Positions 2,962 through 10,332 of a DNA stretch of 41,283 bases are shown here, in pieces. The translations under genes were made by a program, and so were the position numbers. Source of the DNA: Chloroflexota bacterium (GTDB lineage: Bacteria; Chloroflexota; Limnocylindria; P2-11E); NCBI GenBank assembly GCA_005879975.1, contig VBIL01000164.1:1-41283 (forward strand). The letters are read 5' to 3'. The stretch's first letter is position 1. Each line of letters begins with the position of its first letter. A model generated the notes under the pieces. That model was not told the origin of the DNA. It was given only the letters and a program-made list of their open reading frames with translations, and ran no database searches.

Positions 2962-3141
2962 TTAGAAGCCTGGCGGTAGGAGCGAGTCCTCCCAGCTGAT
3001 CCCGATCGGGTCCGGCGTGACCGGGACCTGCTCCCAGCTCACACCGGCGTCGTCGGCCCACGCCGTGCCGCTTGCCGCGAACACGGAGAGCGTGAGGACC
3101 GCCCCAATGATCAGTGCCTTGAGTGTTCCAATGATCTTCAT
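2962..3141 (-). CDS. 59-residue secreted mini-protein with two Ser-Trp-Glu motifs
   Basis: ATG 3141 is preceded by AGGGGG at good Shine-Dalgarno distance and lies 12 bases after the HD-GYP stop, so translation is plausible. Residues 1-29 form a signal peptide (MKIIGTLKAL, hydrophobic core, AWA|DD cleavage site). The predicted mature peptide is about 30 residues, acidic and Pro-rich, with VSWEQV and ISWED spaced 14 residues apart. The S8 peptidase two genes upstream in the same operon ends in Trp-Glu pentapeptides, so the peptide may be its substrate, inhibitor or binding partner (inference). I do not recognise a named family. It is easily missed because of its size. Confidence 0.65.
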   Translation of the reverse strand: MKIIGTLKALIIGAVLTLSVFAASGTAWADDAGVSWEQVPVTPDPIGISWEDSLLPPGF

Positions 3142-3153
3142 TCCTGACCCCCT

Positions 3154-4422
3154 CTAACTCGCGACCTTTACGGCCTCGAGCGCCTGCTGGTAGACGTGCT
3201 GGTGACCGTGTACGGGCGCCTTACCGCGCGCCGCGCGGCGGCGTTCCTCGATGACGACCTGGATGAACGCTTCGACGACCACGGGGTTGAACTGCGTGCC
3301 GGCGTTCGCGCGAAGCTCGCGGAGTGCCTGCTTGGGACGGAGCGCGATGCGGTAGGGCCGCTCGCTGGTCATCGCGTCATACGAGTCGGCCACGGAGATG
3401 ATCTGCGCGGCGAGCGGGATCTCGCTGCCCTTGAGCCCGGCCGGATACCCGGTGCCATCGAAGTTCTCGTGGTGCGCGAGCACGATCGGACGGATCCGAT
3501 CGAGCATCGGAACGTTGCCGAGAAGGCTCGCGCCGATCGTTGGGTGGGCGCGCATTTCGATCCACTCCTCATCGGTGAGCTCTGCGGGCTTGGAGAGGAG
3601 CGACTCGGGAACCCCGTGCGACTCCTTGGCTTCAAGCGCTCCGATCAGCGCGCCGATGACCGAGACATGCGACTGCTCGAGCCGATCGTTGGTCTGTCGC
3701 AGGAGCTCGTTGACCGTGCTGAGCTCCTCATTCCGCTGTCGAACCTCCGTGGACTTCGCCATGTATAGACGGAAGGAGAACCATGCGACGCAGAGAGGGA
3801 CCGTGAAGACGAACACACCGAAGAGCCCCAGCGCCTGGTACGCGAGGGCGAGTGCTGCGCCCTGCACGGCCGTGGCGCCAAAGTTCACGGGCATCCAGCT
3901 GTAGTTCGTCCGCCACACCGAGACGACGTTCTGGCCTTCCGACATCGCGATCGCGACCGCGGTGAGAGAGGTGTTCACGAGGAAGTACGCGCCGGCCGAG
4001 ACTGCTACGGCCAGGAGTGTCGGGCCGATCGCGCTCGGTGGGGTCATGCCGCCGATGAGCCGGTACAGCTCGCCGGCGGCGAACGCCGAGAGCGCGAACG
4101 AACCGAAGTTGAACGCCGCCTTGCGCAGCGGCTTGCGACGCGGTGTGATCGAGTTCACGAGGGCCTGCGCGAGGCTGACCCACACCGCCGCACCGGTTCC
4201 GTAGAGCACGTACGCCGCGATCACGGCCGCGAACGAGACCGAGATCGCGCTCGACCGGAACAGGAAGACGGGCACGCGCTGGGCGACGCATGCGAGCGCG
4301 ACCAGCACAGCGAGCATGATCGGGTCGAGCATGTCCGTCCTCTGCGTGCTCGACGCGGCCATGAGCGCGATCAGCCCGGCGAAGGCCACCGTGCCGACGT
4401 AGAGATCGATCCGCCCTTTCAC
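3154..4422 (-). CDS. Membrane HD-GYP-type signalling protein lacking the HD segment
   Basis: The N-terminal 220 residues hold roughly six to eight hydrophobic segments (a MASE-like membrane sensor). A coiled linker follows (about 222-250), then a C-terminal HD-GYP domain of the cyclic-di-GMP phosphodiesterase class. The GYP part is present: KPAELTDEEW, HHENFDGTGYP (317-327), then VADSYDAMTSERPYR. The stretch that should carry the first His and the HD pair is absent, because EAKESH (264-269) runs straight into GVPESLLSKP. About 45 residues are missing in frame, so catalysis is unlikely as written. GTG 4422 overlaps the S8 stop (GTGA), and GGGAGG 7 bases upstream, inside the last S8 repeat, serves as Shine-Dalgarno. 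Upstream in-frame starts would only add out-of-frame repeat sequence. Confidence 0.8.
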   Translation of the reverse strand: MKGRIDLYVGTVAFAGLIALMAASSTQRTDMLDPIMLAVLVALACVAQRVPVFLFRSSAISVSFAAVIAAYVLYGTGAAVWVSLAQALVNSITPRRKPLRKAAFNFGSFALSAFAAGELYRLIGGMTPPSAIGPTLLAVAVSAGAYFLVNTSLTAVAIAMSEGQNVVSVWRTNYSWMPVNFGATAVQGAALALAYQALGLFGVFVFTVPLCVAWFSFRLYMAKSTEVRQRNEELSTVNELLRQTNDRLEQSHVSVIGALIGALEAKESHGVPESLLSKPAELTDEEWIEMRAHPTIGASLLGNVPMLDRIRPIVLAHHENFDGTGYPAGLKGSEIPLAAQIISVADSYDAMTSERPYRIALRPKQALRELRANAGTQFNPVVVEAFIQVVIEERRRAARGKAPVHGHQHVYQQALEAVKVAS

Positions 4423-5894
4423 GAACGTGCCTCCCATGTGACGCTCTCCCAAGTAACGCTCTCCCATGACACGCTCTCCCATGTGACTCCCTCCCAAGTG
4501 ACGCTCTCCCAGGTGATGCCCTCCCACGTAATGCCGTCCCAGTTCACGCTTCCAGAGATCTGACCGCTCGCGACGAGGACCTTCATGAGCGCCGCCGACG
4601 GCGCGACGCCCGCGTTAACCCGTGCCGGGCGCGCGCCGAGCGAAGCGGCCGCGTCGACCGCAGGGGTGCGCGTTCCATTCACGTCGCGACCGCCTGCGAC
4701 GAGCGCGCCTTTGACCTGGGTCGGCGAGTAATCGGTGTGGGCCTGCAAGACGAGCGCGGCAGCCCCCGCGGCCATCGCGCTCGACGCCGAGGTTCCGGTC
4801 AGGCGCGCGTACGCGCTGACGTTCGACCCTTCTTTGTCTTCTCTGTCGAGGGCCACACCGGGCACACGGAGCGAGACGATGTGCTCGCCCGGCGCCAGCA
4901 CGTCTGGCTTGGCGAAGCCATCGCGCGTTGGTCCGCGGCCGCTGAAGGTCGACTCGCGATCGTCCTTGGTCTCGACTGTCCCCTGGTCGTCGAGCGAGCC
5001 GATGGTGATCACGAACGGATCGGCGCCCGGCATGCTCACGCTGTGCGACCCAGGACCGGCGTTGCCCGCCGCCGCGACGACGGCGATGCCCGCGAAGTGA
5101 GCGGACTCGACGACGCCCGCGAGAAGGGTGCGGTGATACGACGTGGTCTGCTTCGCGCCGAAGGACAGATTCAGAACGCGGATGTGGTATGCGACGCGGT
5201 TGTGCAGCAGCCAGTCGAACGCGGCGAGGACCGAGTGCATCGTGCCCTGGCCCTTCTGATCCAGAACACGGAGGGAGACGAGCTTGGCGTCCGGCGCGAC
5301 ACCCTTGAACCTTTCGCCGTGCGCGGCGATGAGTCCGGCGACGAACGTGCCGTGGCCGCTCGGGTCGAGCTGGGTGGCGCCGTCACCGACGAAGTCGATC
5401 TGCGTCACGACCGATCCCTCGAGGTCGGGATGTCGCGCGACGCCGGTGTCCATCAGCGCGACGGTCACCCCGCGCCCGGTGGACCTGGACCAGGCCCGCT
5501 CGGCGCCGATCACCGTCACGCCGGGGCTCGGCTTCCCACCCGCCTTTTCGTAGTGGTCGTCCTTGCCGACGGCCGTGACGATGGTGTCGGCGGCGATGAA
5601 CGCGACGCGCGCGTCGCTCCGGAGCGCGCGGACCGCATCCTCGGAGACGCGTGCCGTGACGATGTCGATCGTGTCCAGAGCCGCGACATCGGTCGCGCCC
5701 GCGGCCACAGCCAGGGCCGCGACCGCTCCGGCGGCGCCGTGGCCGACGCGCAGGAGCGCGTAGCCGCCGGAGGCGAGCGCGGGGTCAACGGGAGCCTTGG
5801 TCCAGTTAGTCCCGGGGGCGGCTGCAAGGAGGAGAACGGCCGCGGCAAAGAACGCGACACACCGCCGCGATGCCCCACCTTTGCGCCCCGTCAT
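4419..5894 (-). CDS. Secreted S8 (subtilisin-like) serine peptidase with Trp-Glu pentapeptide tail
   Basis: The protein is 491 residues. It has a signal peptide (about 1-28), an I9-like prodomain (about 44-105) and a subtilase domain. The catalytic triad is visible: Asp149 in VALMDTG, His181 in PSGHGTFVAG and Ser369 in TGTSASSAMAAG. The oxyanion Asn278 is in AAGNAG. Residues 451-491 are eight five-residue units of the type T-W-E-S/G-V/I (first unit N-W-D-G-I). The peptidase should act outside the membrane. ATG 5894 was chosen because it leads directly into the signal peptide; ATG 5945 would add 17 polar residues. The gene is first in an operon with the HD-GYP-like protein and the Ser-Trp-Glu mini-protein. 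The 210 bases upstream, before the regulator gene's stop at 6105, hold no gene I can support and probably contain the promoter. Confidence 0.9.
   Translation of the reverse strand: MTGRKGGASRRCVAFFAAAVLLLAAAPGTNWTKAPVDPALASGGYALLRVGHGAAGAVAALAVAAGATDVAALDTIDIVTARVSEDAVRALRSDARVAFIAADTIVTAVGKDDHYEKAGGKPSPGVTVIGAERAWSRSTGRGVTVALMDTGVARHPDLEGSVVTQIDFVGDGATQLDPSGHGTFVAGLIAAHGERFKGVAPDAKLVSLRVLDQKGQGTMHSVLAAFDWLLHNRVAYHIRVLNLSFGAKQTTSYHRTLLAGVVESAHFAGIAVVAAAGNAGPGSHSVSMPGADPFVITIGSLDDQGTVETKDDRESTFSGRGPTRDGFAKPDVLAPGEHIVSLRVPGVALDREDKEGSNVSAYARLTGTSASSAMAAGAAALVLQAHTDYSPTQVKGALVAGGRDVNGTRTPAVDAAASLGARPARVNAGVAPSAALMKVLVASGQISGSVNWDGITWEGITWESVTWEGVTWESVSWESVTWESVTWEARS
4422..4544 (-). repeat. 15-bp coding tandem repeat (eight Trp-Glu pentapeptides)
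   Basis: Eight degenerate 15-base units at the 3' end of the S8 gene share the invariant core TGGGAG (TGGGAC in the first), encoding Trp-Glu (Trp-Asp in the first). Third positions vary (ACG/ACC/ACT/ACA/TCA) while the residues are kept, which suggests selection on protein rather than recent DNA duplication. The GGGAG core is also Shine-Dalgarno-like in every unit. Confidence 0.9.
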
Positions 5895-6104
5895 TTCCCC
5901 CGAAACTCCCAACCGAGTACTACCCACCTGTGACGAGGAGGTCATCCCCTGTGCGGGTGATGTTCACCGAAGCAGGCGAGCGCGCAATGGTTTGGGAGGC
6001 GTCCGAGCGAAGGTCGAAACGCATGCGAAACACTTTCGGGCGCCGCCTCCGTCACCTGCATGAGGCAGGGACATCAGAGGCGATGCGTGATTAGTCCAGG
6101 TTGA

Positions 6105-9100
6105 TTACCCGCCGGTGCGCTTGATCCGCTGGTAGAGCTCGCGCGTCGCGGCCTCGGGCTCGGCGCCGAGGTCGCGGCGGAGCATGGCCTCAAGGGCTTG
6201 GTAGTGACGCATCGCCAGAGCGGCGTCGCCGGACTCGTGGTGCGCGCGCATCAGCAGACGATGGGCTTCTTCGTCGTAGGGTTCGCGTTGCAGGAGCTTC
6301 TCGAGCGGACGGATCGCCTCGCGCGGCTCTTTCCATTCAAGCTCGAGCGTCGCGAGCTCCTTCGCCGCTCCGACCAGCTGCCGATTCGTCTCCTCGCGAT
6401 TGCGATCGATCCATGGGGCGCTCAGGTCAGCGAGGAATTCACCGCGGTGAACCGCCACGGCGGCGCGGAGGTGCTGGACGGCCTCTCGCGATCTACCGGC
6501 CTCGCGCGCTTCGCGGCCCCTCCGGAGCGATCGGCGGAATACCTCGAGGTCAACGTGTATCGATAGCGGAAGCGCGAGACGATATCCGGCGTCGGTGCGG
6601 ACCACGCTGGTCGCCTCGGACGCGCCGGCTGAGGCGAGCGCCTTGCGGAGCGCGTGTAGCGTGAAATGGAAGTTGGAGAGCGCGGACGCCGCGTCCGTCT
6701 CCGGCCAGAGCTGGGCGACGAGCTCGTCACGTGAGATCGCCCGCTGGCGATCGAGGAGCATGAGCGCGAAGAGCTCCTTCGCCTTGCTCGTTCGCCAGCC
6801 GCGGTCGCTGATGCGTGCGCCGCTCGCGCGGAGCTCGAACGGTCCGAGCATGAACGCCTGGATGCTCTCCGCGGCGGCGGAAGGCACGCCCTGAGATGCA
6901 GCGGGGACGACGGGCGCGGGCTGAAGAAGCAGCGCGAGTGAGCGCGTCTCATCCGGCGGGATTTCGAGGTCCGGCAATCGCTGACGCAGTGCTTCGGCCA
7001 GCGCGGGCCGCAGCAGGAGGAAATCGCGATAACGCTCCGCCGCGACGGCACGCAGCGCGGGCTTCGTCGCCTCAACGACCCAGTCGGCGACGGCGGTCGC
7101 CAGGAGAGTGGCTTTTACCTCAAGGTAGCGCGCGCCGATGGCACCGGCCGAGGCGCGGGCTTCGCCATATGCCTTGAACGCGCCGTCGCGGTCGCCTTCG
7201 GCCTCGAGGATCGCGCCGCGCGCGATCGCCGCGCGGATGCCCGCGACCGGTCCCGAGGATGACGCAGCGATCGCCTCCGCGGCGCGCAGCGCGTCATGCG
7301 CCGAGGTCGCTTCTCCGCGAAGCGCGCGTAGCTCCGCCGCCGTCGCGTGCAGCTCGGCGATGATGCGATCGTCACCTTGATCGCGGCTCAACTCGACGCC
7401 CGCGCGGTACACCTCCTCGACCGCACCGCGCTCGGCGGCGAGCGAGTGAACGGTCATGAGCGTCGCGCACATCGCAGCCTGCGCCAGGCGAAGGTCGTTC
7501 GCACTCGCGATCTCGAGCGTTTGCCGGAGCGTGTCGAGCGCCTCCGCGGTGTCGCCACGACGGGTGCGGACATCGACAAGTCCGGCCTCGGCCCAGCACA
7601 GGGCGGTTACGTCGGCGCTCTTCTGCTGCAGTGCGAGTGCACGGAGATACGTTCTCTGCGCGACATCGAGCTCGCCGAGCAGATGATGGAGCTGCGCGAG
7701 GGCTAGGGCTTCGGCGAGCTCGCCGGTCCGATCCGAAAGAAGCGAGAACATCGCTTCGGCCTTGAGATGCGCGGTCGTCGCCTGCTCGAGCTCGCCGAGA
7801 TCGGCGTGACAGCCGCCGATGAGATGCCAGATCCACGCCGCCTGTGAAGAGGCGCCTTCGCCGATGAGCTCCTGCGCGCCGCGAGCCTCTGCAAGTGCCT
7901 GCCCCGGCCGTCGCAGGTAGCGGAGCGCCTGCGCCGACCACGTCAGCGCGCGCGCGAGGCCCTCCTCGTCCCGCGCGCGCCGAAGCTGATCGGCGGCGTC
8001 GCGATAGTGCGCAAGCGCACGCTCGTAGTCGCCGCGCACGCGATGGAGAAGACCGCGGAGCAGGAGCACCCACGGAAGCCGGCGCTCGACCCCCGGCGGG
8101 AATCCGTCCAACCAGCGCTGCAGCGTCGCGACCTCACTCCCCTGCAGCACCCGTTCGCCGTGATCGCGGACGAGCTGCGCGGCGCGCTTGTGCTCGCCGG
8201 CCTGCTGCAGATGATGGATCGCGCGATCGACGTCACCGCGCGCGAGCGCGCGCTCGGCGTGACCGCGATGCAGCTCGACGATCTCGGCGGCGGGCAAGAG
8301 CTCGCGCGCGCGAGCGTGGAGGAACTCGGCGAACAGAGGCTGGAAGCGATGACCGGCTCCCGCCGCGCCGTCACGAATGACGAGCCCGGCTCCTTCGAGC
8401 GAGGCTACGAGCTCGCGCGAGGCGCCTCCCGCCGACACCGACTCGTCTTCCTCCAGCCGCTCGAGGAGCGACCAGCGGAGGAGCCTGTCTTGATCCTCAC
8501 GCGAGCCGCGACCGAGGACTTCGCTGTTGAAGTACGCGTACAGCTCGGCCCCGCTTCCGCGGAACTCGCCGAGTTCACGCCAGCCCCGCTCGCGAACGAA
8601 GGCTGCGGCGAGACGCAGGCCGGCGGGCCAACCGCCGGTGCGGCCGTAGATCGCGTCGACGGCGTGCTCGGGTAGATCGAGGCCGAACTCACCGCGCAGG
8701 AGCTCGATCGCCTCGGAACGCGTGAACGCGAGCTCCGCCGCCGAGATGTCCAGGACCGAGCCGGCGAGGCGCCAGCGCGGAAGACCACTGAGCTGCGGCG
8801 TCCGGCGTGTAGCGAGAACAAGGTGCGCGTTATCGGGAAGCAGCTCGACCAGCTCGCTCCCGAAGGTCGCGAGTGACGCGCCTTGCACGCTCGGGTGGTC
8901 GTCTACGAAGAAGACGAGGTCGCCGAGCGGCGCGAGCTCGTCGGCGAGCGCCTGCGCGAGCTGCGGCAGCCTTCGTTCGAGCCGGCGCCCGTGCTCGAGC
9001 GAGGACAGGAGCTGGTCCCCGAACTCCGCGTCGTCGCGGCGCAGCGCGCCGACCAGGTCGGTGAAGAGGACGAGCGGGTCCTCGTCGCCGCGCTGCAGGG

Positions 9101-9317
9101 TGAGCCAGGCCATGCGCCGGCCGGAGGCGCGGAGAAGGTCAGCGTGCTGCGCGAGGAGGGTCGTCTTGCCGTAGCCGGCCGCGGCATGGACGAGCGTGAG
9201 GCGATGCCGGTCGGCACCCCCCAGTCGATCGAGCAGCCGTTGCCGCTGCAGGAGCGGGAGCGGGAGCGAGGGTGGCGCGTACCGCGTGCGATCGGGCCTG
9301 CGGCTCGCGACGGTCAA
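6105..9317 (-). CDS. STAND-ATPase / TPR / BTAD transcriptional regulator
   Basis: A roughly 1070-residue cytosolic regulator. The N-terminus is a MalT-type NTPase with Walker A AAAGYGKTT (about 41-49), Walker B-like VFFVDD and the GGWPAGLRLAA motif. A long helical TPR-like middle follows. The C-terminal quarter has an OmpR-type winged helix (LGPFELR, KAKELFALML, LVAQLWPE) and a bacterial transcriptional activator domain (YDEEAHRLLMRAHHESGD). Such proteins bind an inducer through ATPase/TPR modules and activate transcription. In classical MalT/LuxR members the DNA-binding part is a C-terminal LuxR helix-turn-helix; here it is OmpR/BTAD. TTG 9317 was chosen because it avoids overlapping the PiT gene; TTG 9371 would overlap by 50 bases. 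The target genes are unknown; the S8 operon directly downstream is a candidate. Confidence 0.85.
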   Translation of the reverse strand: MTVASRRPDRTRYAPPSLPLPLLQRQRLLDRLGGADRHRLTLVHAAAGYGKTTLLAQHADLLRASGRRMAWLTLQRGDEDPLVLFTDLVGALRRDDAEFGDQLLSSLEHGRRLERRLPQLAQALADELAPLGDLVFFVDDHPSVQGASLATFGSELVELLPDNAHLVLATRRTPQLSGLPRWRLAGSVLDISAAELAFTRSEAIELLRGEFGLDLPEHAVDAIYGRTGGWPAGLRLAAAFVRERGWRELGEFRGSGAELYAYFNSEVLGRGSREDQDRLLRWSLLERLEEDESVSAGGASRELVASLEGAGLVIRDGAAGAGHRFQPLFAEFLHARARELLPAAEIVELHRGHAERALARGDVDRAIHHLQQAGEHKRAAQLVRDHGERVLQGSEVATLQRWLDGFPPGVERRLPWVLLLRGLLHRVRGDYERALAHYRDAADQLRRARDEEGLARALTWSAQALRYLRRPGQALAEARGAQELIGEGASSQAAWIWHLIGGCHADLGELEQATTAHLKAEAMFSLLSDRTGELAEALALAQLHHLLGELDVAQRTYLRALALQQKSADVTALCWAEAGLVDVRTRRGDTAEALDTLRQTLEIASANDLRLAQAAMCATLMTVHSLAAERGAVEEVYRAGVELSRDQGDDRIIAELHATAAELRALRGEATSAHDALRAAEAIAASSSGPVAGIRAAIARGAILEAEGDRDGAFKAYGEARASAGAIGARYLEVKATLLATAVADWVVEATKPALRAVAAERYRDFLLLRPALAEALRQRLPDLEIPPDETRSLALLLQPAPVVPAASQGVPSAAAESIQAFMLGPFELRASGARISDRGWRTSKAKELFALMLLDRQRAISRDELVAQLWPETDAASALSNFHFTLHALRKALASAGASEATSVVRTDAGYRLALPLSIHVDLEVFRRSLRRGREAREAGRSREAVQHLRAAVAVHRGEFLADLSAPWIDRNREETNRQLVGAAKELATLELEWKEPREAIRPLEKLLQREPYDEEAHRLLMRAHHESGDAALAMRHYQALEAMLRRDLGAEPEAATRELYQRIKRTGG

Positions 9318-9321
9318 GACG

Positions 9322-10332
9322 CTAAGGATGCACTCCGACCGCGCGCAAGAGGGTGGCGGTCCCGTAGCCAAGGAAGAAACAGCCAGGGATGGTTAGCACC
9401 CACGCGGTCACGATCCGGCCGGCGATCCCCCAACGGACCGCCGAAAGCCGTCGGGTCGATCCGACGCCGAGGATCGCGCCCGAGATCGCGTGCGTGGTGG
9501 ATATAGGAATGCCGAACCGGGTCGCGATCTCAATGACCGTCGCCGCGGACGTCTCCGCCGCGAACCCGCTGACGGGCGTGAGCGCGGTGATGCGCATGCC
9601 CATGGTCTTGATGATCCGCCAGCCGCCGGTCGCCGTCCCAAGTCCGATGGCGACGGCGCATAAGACCTTCACCCAATCCGGGATGTAGAAGCCCGGCCCG
9701 GTCGGCACGGCGCCGTACGCTGCGAGCGCCAGTGCGATGACGCCCATGGTCTTCTGTCCATCGTTGCCGCCATGGCTGAACGCCATGTACGCGCTCGAAA
9801 GGATCTGCGCGCGTCCGAAGAAACGGCTGACGAGTCGATAGCTCACGTTCCGGAGTCCCCAGTAGAGGGCGAGCATGAACGCATAGCCGAAGATGAACGC
9901 GACGAGCGGCGAGTACACGATGCCGAAGGAAGTCTTCTGCAGACCCGGTGCGATGATGACGTCCAAGCCGTGCGCCGAGACGGCGGCGCCGATGACGCTG
10001 AAGATGAGCGCGTGACTCGACGAAGTCGGGAGCGCCGCGACGAAAGTGATGAGATCCCAGATGATCGCGCCGACCAGCGCGGCGACGACGAGGTCCTGGG
10101 TGACCACCTTCGCATCGACGATGCCGTTTCCGACCGTCTTGGCGACGGCTTCGCCCGATAGCGCGCCGACGAGGTTCAGTCCGCCTGCCATGAGGATCGC
10201 CTGTAGTGGCGTAAGCACGCGAGTGGCGATGACCGTCGCGATGGCGTTCGCGGCGTCGTGGAAACCATTGACGAACTCGAAGCCGACGCCGAGAAGCACC
10301 ACCAGAACGAGCAGGACGGTGGCGTTGTCCAA
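9322..10332 (-). CDS. pit: PiT-family inorganic phosphate transporter
   Basis: A 336-residue polytopic membrane protein with the two inverted PiT signature repeats: NGFHDAANAIATVIATR near the N-terminus and AYMAFSHGGNDGQKTMG in the second half. The motif ALPTSSSHALI recurs as IPISTTHAISG. It takes up phosphate, usually as a metal-phosphate complex, driven by the proton (or sodium) gradient. The TTG start follows immediately after the TAG of the DUF47 gene (TAGTTG), so the two proteins should be translated in step. The length is on the short, bacterial side of the family and complete at both ends. Confidence 0.95.
   Translation of the reverse strand: MDNATVLLVLVVLLGVGFEFVNGFHDAANAIATVIATRVLTPLQAILMAGGLNLVGALSGEAVAKTVGNGIVDAKVVTQDLVVAALVGAIIWDLITFVAALPTSSSHALIFSVIGAAVSAHGLDVIIAPGLQKTSFGIVYSPLVAFIFGYAFMLALYWGLRNVSYRLVSRFFGRAQILSSAYMAFSHGGNDGQKTMGVIALALAAYGAVPTGPGFYIPDWVKVLCAVAIGLGTATGGWRIIKTMGMRITALTPVSGFAAETSAATVIEIATRFGIPISTTHAISGAILGVGSTRRLSAVRWGIAGRIVTAWVLTIPGCFFLGYGTATLLRAVGVHP

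Follow-up and report, generated by a model that had tools for sequence, protein, structure and literature searches.

The window analysed here, the whole of a 41,283-nucleotide stretch (contig VBIL01000164.1, assembly GCA_005879975.1) from a Chloroflexota bacterium (Limnocylindria; P2-11E), carries on its minus strand a unit of three genes that encode, in this order, an S8 peptidase (4419-5945), a MASE9/HD-GYP membrane protein (3154-4422) and a 59-residue exported peptide (2962-3141). The first two genes overlap by 4 nucleotides (TCG-TGA/GTGA), the second starting with GTG at 4422, and the second and third are separated by a 12-nucleotide gap that contains an AGGGGG ribosome-binding site; all three open reading frames lie where an earlier note on this DNA had placed them, with the overlap and the gap that it had given. 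In a scan of the window's open reading frames of at least 30 residues, the motif [ILVM][STAN]W[ED] occurred only in the peptidase and the peptide and was absent from all the others, which agrees with the claim that the Trp-Glu motif is limited to these two. The two Ser-Trp-Glu motifs reported for the peptide were read again as GVSWE and GISWE, and of the eight Trp-Glu pentapeptides reported for the peptidase, the eight Trp residues and their exact spacing stand, with seven units reading WE and one WD. From these sequences we infer an association, physical or functional, between tail, peptide and sensor. The features are the following.

4419..5945, minus strand: exported S8 (subtilisin-type) serine peptidase, 508 residues (Pfam PF00082, E 6.7e-50; D, H and S motifs VALMDTG, GHGTFVAG and GTSASSA)
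4431..4550, minus strand: C-terminal tail of the peptidase, eight W[ED]xxx units with a five-residue period (read from the sequence)
3154..4422, minus strand: membrane protein with a MASE9 sensor domain and a degenerate HD-GYP domain (Pfam MASE9 1.4e-7, HD_5 3.7e-29; alignment with 23 relatives)
3814..4254, minus strand: Pfam-matched stretch of the MASE9-like transmembrane sensor domain (the same domain lies downstream of tailed S8 genes in other families)
3615..3616, minus strand: junction of an in-frame 123-nucleotide (41-codon) deletion in the HD-GYP gene (ortholog alignment)
2962..3141, minus strand: gene of the 59-residue exported peptide, with two G[VI]SWE motifs (family alignments A1/A6; no Pfam, NCBIfam or PADLOC family)
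3055..3141, minus strand: predicted signal peptide with a GTAWA cleavage context (by inspection; G25, T26, A27, W28 and A29 nearly invariant in alignment A1)
3031..3045, minus strand: GVSWE, motif 1 of the peptide (read from the sequence)
2989..3003, minus strand: GISWE, motif 2 of the peptide, eight residues before the C-terminus (read from the sequence)

The peptidase is a member of Peptidase_S8 (PF00082), scoring 170.5 bits against a gathering score of 21.8 with the D, H and S motifs all present, and subtilisins of the PDB match its residues ~147-422 with E values down to 4e-51; the N-terminal region that precedes this catalytic domain could serve as a pro-region. Orthologs within the genus are 57-80% identical. 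Mycosins have the S8 catalytic domain in common with it, but the protein described here carries a Trp-acid tail, has no type VII secretion genes among its immediate neighbours and reaches 161.8 bits, a partial score, against the equivalog cut-off of 278.75 of the mycosin model (TIGR03921). An anti-phage role was rejected, the weak PADLOC subtilase/IetS matches being explained by the S8 fold.

The tail, SVNWDGITWEGITWESVTWEGVTWESVSWESVTWESVTWEARS, places its eight Trp residues at an exact spacing of five. Across 32 aligned tailed S8 proteins, with identities down to 31%, W474, W479 and W484 are invariant; the number and composition of the repeats vary, and the five-residue period and the Trp are constant. 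Synonymous codons differ between the units. When three five-periodic W[ED] codons were sought as a TGGGA DNA pattern in 14 related genomes, the matches listed were S8 tails, save for a lone array in the window's own genome (G000:C108; G, C, L and f are our handles for genomes, contigs, loci and families), which is taken as chance, and the reversed control gave zero matches in the same genomes. Most of the multi-copy W[ED] arrays that were found across the phylum by DNA pattern and fetched are S8 tails as well. Two candidates were set aside: a fourfold W[ED] pattern applied to all species genomes, where nearly all of the matches listed were low-complexity chance arrays and few were S8 genes, and small tail-only open reading frames in G003:C132 and G009:C63, which are contig-end fragments of S8 genes.

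The partner that accompanies the tail throughout the phylum is a membrane sensor. In a recount, a MASE9-like membrane protein follows the W[ED]xxx-tailed S8 gene in 29 of 32 assessable Chloroflexota loci (the two found through the sensor, L315 and L319, being left out and L060 being taken as a degenerate tail), and a scripted rule, in which the presence of a sensor beside the S8 gene was scored for each assessable locus with a profile trained on S8-linked sensors, gave 31 of 35. Many of the S8-linked sensors were also matched by Pfam MASE9 and by an earlier profile for which only the window's order was used. Tail-less S8 loci of the same phylum have the sensor in one case of 20 by the script, and in none of 19 once L060 is counted as a degenerate tail; when the scripted W[ED] and WS tails are taken together, the comparison is 37 of 46 against 1 of 20 (Fisher p 7e-9). 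The distances among the S8 proteins correlate with those among the sensors (r 0.75; 0 of 2000 permutations as high). Because many of the loci are close relatives, independent support is better counted by family, and seven families hold the pair of tailed S8 and sensor (f1, f2, f19, f23, f33, f42 and f48), the three misses falling in f52 and f55.

The part of the sensor protein that changes from lineage to lineage is the output. After a tailed S8 gene, the sensor is joined to HD-GYP in G284, G249, G354 and G277, to GGDEF-EAL in G382:C178, and to GGDEF plus a histidine kinase in G291 (a histidine kinase output is cited for L267); in family f19 (L261-L264) the gene immediately after the tailed S8 gene encodes a stand-alone MASE9-like membrane protein of 236-252 residues with no output domain, and the next gene encodes a second sensor, joined to GGDEF. 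Across lineages the outputs mostly have intact HD-GYP, GGDEF or GGDEF-EAL motifs. The swapping of catalytic outputs behind one sensor argues for signalling from outside to inside. Within the genus, a second group of S8 paralogues, with tails of the WEDITWE type, is likewise followed by a MASE9-HD-GYP gene (L051-L060). In other Chloroflexota families (L395-L400, L403, L405), S8 proteins with W-S-G-x-x tails precede a GGDEF-EAL-type protein with a weakly MASE9-like N-terminus; such a membrane protein, with weak similarity to the sensor domain, was found in 8 of 11 loci when the output was inspected and in 6 of 11 by the script, and the pairing thus probably extends to these tails in a broader form. 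Two loci of G382 have unusual arrangements: in L319 (G382:C455) two tandem S8 genes, with YYWDS and AFWDT repeats, stand before one MASE9-like GGDEF protein, and in L268 (G382:C170) the gene that comes after an S8 gene with DQIRWD repeats encodes a class III nucleotide cyclase-like protein in place of an enzyme of cyclic di-GMP (c-di-GMP).

The window protein has the fusion of MASE9 (PF20972) to HD-GYP in common with MASE9 c-di-GMP enzymes, of which those linked to S8 are a high-scoring subset. An adjacent tailed S8 gene was seen in only two (G284, G382) of 40 other Chloroflexota MASE9 loci examined, and since most MASE9 genes have no adjoining S8, MASE9 is a sensor of broad use, with one branch linked to the tailed peptidases. 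A MASE9-HD-GYP protein very close to that branch (282 bits) but with no adjoining S8 was observed in L314 (G028:C51) and is an orphan receptor candidate. An apparent tail-less S8-HD-GYP fusion in G010:C23 (L042), considered as a Rosetta-stone candidate, was rejected on account of a run of 99 N at the position of the tail.

The window's own sensor protein belongs to MASE9 (32.1 bits against a gathering score of 24.3), and its HD-GYP domain is damaged. The deletion removes ...SGHAATTM...LFHDVGKI of the HD core, that is, the conserved H and the HD pair of the metal site that most orthologs have, and leaves HHENFDGTGYP, the HHExxDGxGYP motif, in place. The junction at 3615/3616 is in frame and contains no N run, and in one relative (L043) N bases make the same region unreadable; the deletion may be genuine or a collapse of the assembly. 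Since the HD residues are lost, the enzymatic output of this copy is probably dead. The same conserved H is altered by point changes elsewhere, to Q in G022 and to R in G028, so that catalytic output is not universal. In G022 (L040), one tailed S8 gene is flanked by two MASE9-HD-GYP genes, both of which encode proteins that lack the conserved H, and two tandem peptide genes follow.

The peptide has zero matches to families of Pfam, NCBIfam and PADLOC. Its predicted mature part, after ...GTAWA, is DDAGVSWEQVPVTPDPIGISWEDSLLPPGF. The earlier note had made its proposal depend on conservation of this small open reading frame in relatives, and a signal peptide followed by (G/T)[IV]SWE is indeed encoded after the HD-GYP stop codon in 10 of 10 genomes of the same genus (G001-G010; G004 has two tandem copies). 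Two further genera of the family also have the peptide after HD-GYP, one with three tandem copies in G016 and two each in G022, G020, G024 and G026, the other with a single copy in G018. The spacing is 10-18 nucleotides in the genus and 3 in G022; the contigs of G016, G018, G020, G024 and G026 break inside the HD-GYP gene, and the peptides come after its 3' end. Throughout, and in G018, G020, G024 and G026 as well, the peptide gene adjoins the sensor gene and not the protease gene. The consensus, G[IV][ST]WE, lies at or near the C-terminus (13 of 23 family peptides end with it exactly, and 3 have it one residue from the end), and alignments A1/A6 show conservation of the end of the signal peptide and of [IV][ST]WE around a variable spacer. 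In 16 of 22 peptides a hydrophobic residue precedes the motif nearest the C-terminus; subtilases tend to favour a hydrophobic residue at such a position. Pairwise ratios of nonsynonymous to synonymous substitution (dN/dS) in relatives, where computable, are 0.13-0.49, from which the gene is very probably translated and under purifying selection.

Outside one family, profile searches of 177 genomes of the class and 301 of the phylum returned zero credible members. Matches below E 1e-8 were confined to genera g1 and g7 of that family, and the weaker ones mostly cover the half that resembles a signal peptide, except those in g7 and in G018 (g3), which were accepted because they end in VTWE/ITWE and lie after HD-GYP. 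The peptide was not found in G028 (a sister family), in G014 or at the second S8/HD-GYP locus of the same-genus genomes. As for the co-occurrence of small peptide, HD-GYP and S8, which the earlier note proposed as a check, many Trp-Glu-tailed S8 genes (paralogue group 2, G028 and all other families) have no peptide, so that it is the membrane sensor, rather than the peptide, that is the tail's constant partner. The link that had been suggested among protease, peptide and sensor looks non-accidental, given the conservation of the peptide, its dN/dS and the phylum-wide pairing of protease and sensor, with the peptide as a family-restricted addition. Tail and peptide also resemble each other genome by genome: the pentapeptide of the peptide recurs exactly in the tail of its own genome in 10 of 14 genomes compared (shuffled mean 5.9, p 0.012), among which G020, G024 and G026 have tail and peptide on different contigs, and the unusual TVSWE of G001 is common to both.

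Two known systems invite comparison. In the Rap-Phr systems of Bacillota (RRNPPA), as in the family described here, a small exported pro-peptide combines a conserved short motif with a variable spacer and duplications; Phr pro-peptides are reported to carry internal and C-terminal copies of a pheromone motif of 5-6 residues and to be matured by secreted proteases that include subtilases (PMC11343458, citing Lanigan-Gerdes 2007 for the latter). The family has these traits, including the C-terminal motif, and in the window's copy 8 residues follow the last motif. The neighbours of the peptide are the MASE9-HD-GYP protein, a HAD protein and, upstream of the S8 gene, a BTAD regulator with tetratricopeptide repeats (TPRs), and zero Rap family matches were obtained among the proteins scanned for an adjacent Rap/RRNPPA TPR receptor. 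No cytoplasmic Rap/TPR receptor was found in the unit, where the candidate receptor is a membrane MASE9 protein, and the protease lies in the same unit and itself bears the motif. A peptide signal received by a membrane c-di-GMP enzyme would be distinct from the Rap-Phr route, in which the peptide is imported. The other system is LapD-LapG, in which LapD, a HAMP/degenerate GGDEF-EAL receptor, holds the cysteine protease LapG through its periplasmic domain. The likeness is the genetic pairing of a membrane c-di-GMP-related protein with an exported protease (PMC3032545); here, by contrast, there are an S8 protease, MASE9, an HD-GYP or an active-looking GGDEF-EAL output, and a peptide. The Pfam scan of the window protein returned MASE9 and HD_5/HD, and neither HAMP nor a LapD-like periplasmic domain nor a degenerate GGDEF-EAL was seen in it. 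The unit belongs to neither system, being distinct in the type of receptor, the class of protease and the sensor domain.

Taken as a whole, these observations lead us to propose, with a probability of roughly 0.4, that protease, peptide and sensor form a signalling unit in which the Trp-acid motif is the ligand of the sensor. The components with which such a mechanism would start are read directly from the genes: an exported subtilase that ends in Trp-acid pentads and a small exported pro-peptide with the same motif, both with export signals by inspection. The motif would bind, as a short linear ligand, to the extracellular side of the MASE9 domain, which would be the common partner of both proteins. 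The tail would present it in a multivalent, tethered form and bring the protease to the sensor; the peptide would be a soluble pro-signal of the Phr kind, from which signal peptidase and then the S8 peptidase would free a short peptide bearing G[IV][ST]WE that competes with the tail or reports for it. Judging from the domain architecture, binding would change the cytoplasmic output, normally breakdown of c-di-GMP by HD-GYP and, in other lineages, synthesis by GGDEF or phosphotransfer; the window's copy, with its HD core deleted, would be at most a binding partner, or would be decaying. As the pairing of sensor and protease extends across the phylum and the peptide is confined to one family, we think that the tail came first as ligand and that the peptide arose later as its soluble copy. 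A broader formulation, an as yet undescribed Chloroflexota signalling class in which a polymeric Trp-acid ligand borne by a secreted subtilase is read by a MASE9 sensor with interchangeable second-messenger or kinase outputs, and from which a free peptide pheromone with the same pentapeptide was derived in one family, is tentative and in our judgement somewhat doubtful.

Several observations weigh against the proposed signalling unit. A third group of S8 paralogues (L044 = G000:C46; L058, L061-L070), with long SIAWD/SVAWD tails of 10-15 W[ED] motifs, has a neighbouring sensor in 0 of 11 loci, and these peptidases may be trans-acting partners of the same sensor. Five of the 11 WS-tailed loci have no scripted sensor match, though two of them (L395, L400) carry a weakly scoring membrane GGDEF protein, and the 29 of 32 paired loci, being related, are not 32 independent events. 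The match between the pentapeptides of tail and peptide is not significant within the genus alone (p 0.29), so that phylogeny may explain it, and in the window's genome the pentapeptides of the peptide are not exact copies of its own tail units, nor is the last motif of the peptide C-terminal. If both proteins were cut at the same site, the residue before the cut (P1) would be Glu in the tail and mostly hydrophobic in the peptide; the tail is therefore probably not cut into the same peptides, and the idea that it is itself diced into them was not adopted. AlphaFold models of the tailed S8 and of the sensor have a mean predicted local distance difference test score of 38 and 39 (5 and 3 sequences) and consequently lend no structural support to binding.

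Part of this pattern would also be expected if the motif served docking only, the Trp-acid tail acting as a tag by which the protease is retained at the cell surface, whether on the cell wall, on a glycan or on the sensor, the peptide a soluble competitor or plug at the same site that sets the amount of protease released, and the membrane protein a controller of the protease from inside, in the manner in which LapD controls LapG (PMC3032545), rather than a sensor. Repeats that vary in number and composition and keep their period and Trp are like multivalent binding tails, the group 3 tails with no neighbouring sensor suit a general surface tag, and the damaged HD core of the window, together with the changes of the conserved H in G022 and G028, suits a role as receptor rather than enzyme. 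The outputs, however, with a histidine kinase among them (L267) and mostly intact catalytic motifs, point from outside to inside, and the HAMP or LapD-like periplasmic domain of the precedent was not seen in Pfam; we regard docking alone as unlikely.

The operon that peptide and protease have in common, their common motif and their export would be accounted for if the peptide were an inhibitor or chaperone that binds the S8 peptidase as a mimic of the tail, occupying the site that the tail takes within the molecule, and prevents its activity before it has reached the outside, the sensor being merely co-transcribed. This is quite improbable, since the peptide gene is never next to the protease gene, the tailed S8 genes of group 2, of G028 and of other families have no peptide, and the protease has a potential pro-region of its own. 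Autonomous drift of repeats, with the tail as a slippage-prone, low-complexity end and the peptide motifs as coincidence or a relic derived from the tail, is already disfavoured and in our view highly improbable: slippage can expand repeats, and the motif has only five residues, but the Trp of the tail are invariant in S8 proteins down to 31% identity, synonymous codons differ from unit to unit, the five-periodic Trp arrays sit in S8 tails instead of being scattered across the genome, and the peptide, present in three genera, has the dN/dS values given above.

If the proposed signalling unit is real, it would provide a first candidate ligand for MASE9 and connect secreted proteolysis with c-di-GMP, in a way open to direct test, in soil bacteria that have been little studied. 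The open-access literature searched yielded no description of the combination of S8, HD-GYP and Trp-Glu motifs, of subtilases with such repeats or of a Chloroflexi link between c-di-GMP and peptidases, which is weak evidence of absence; nor was a precedent found in open-access text for peptide signalling via a membrane c-di-GMP enzyme. MASE9 was not named in any of the open-access papers searched. The arrangement of protease tail, sensor and peptide may be an undescribed signalling system of peptide and protease.

Gene order within the genus says little by itself, since the whole neighbourhood is syntenic, with a BTAD-type regulator upstream and a HAD gene downstream also kept, as expected from common descent; the argument for linkage is carried by what is seen in other genera and other families and by the selective constraint on the peptide (dN/dS). 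The upstream gene adjoins the unit in 8 congeneric loci, where its product is 79-94% identical, and is a possible regulator of the operon.

6105..9371, minus strand: BTAD/TPR/ATPase-type transcription regulator upstream of the S8 gene (Pfam BTAD 2.6e-30; candidate operon regulator)

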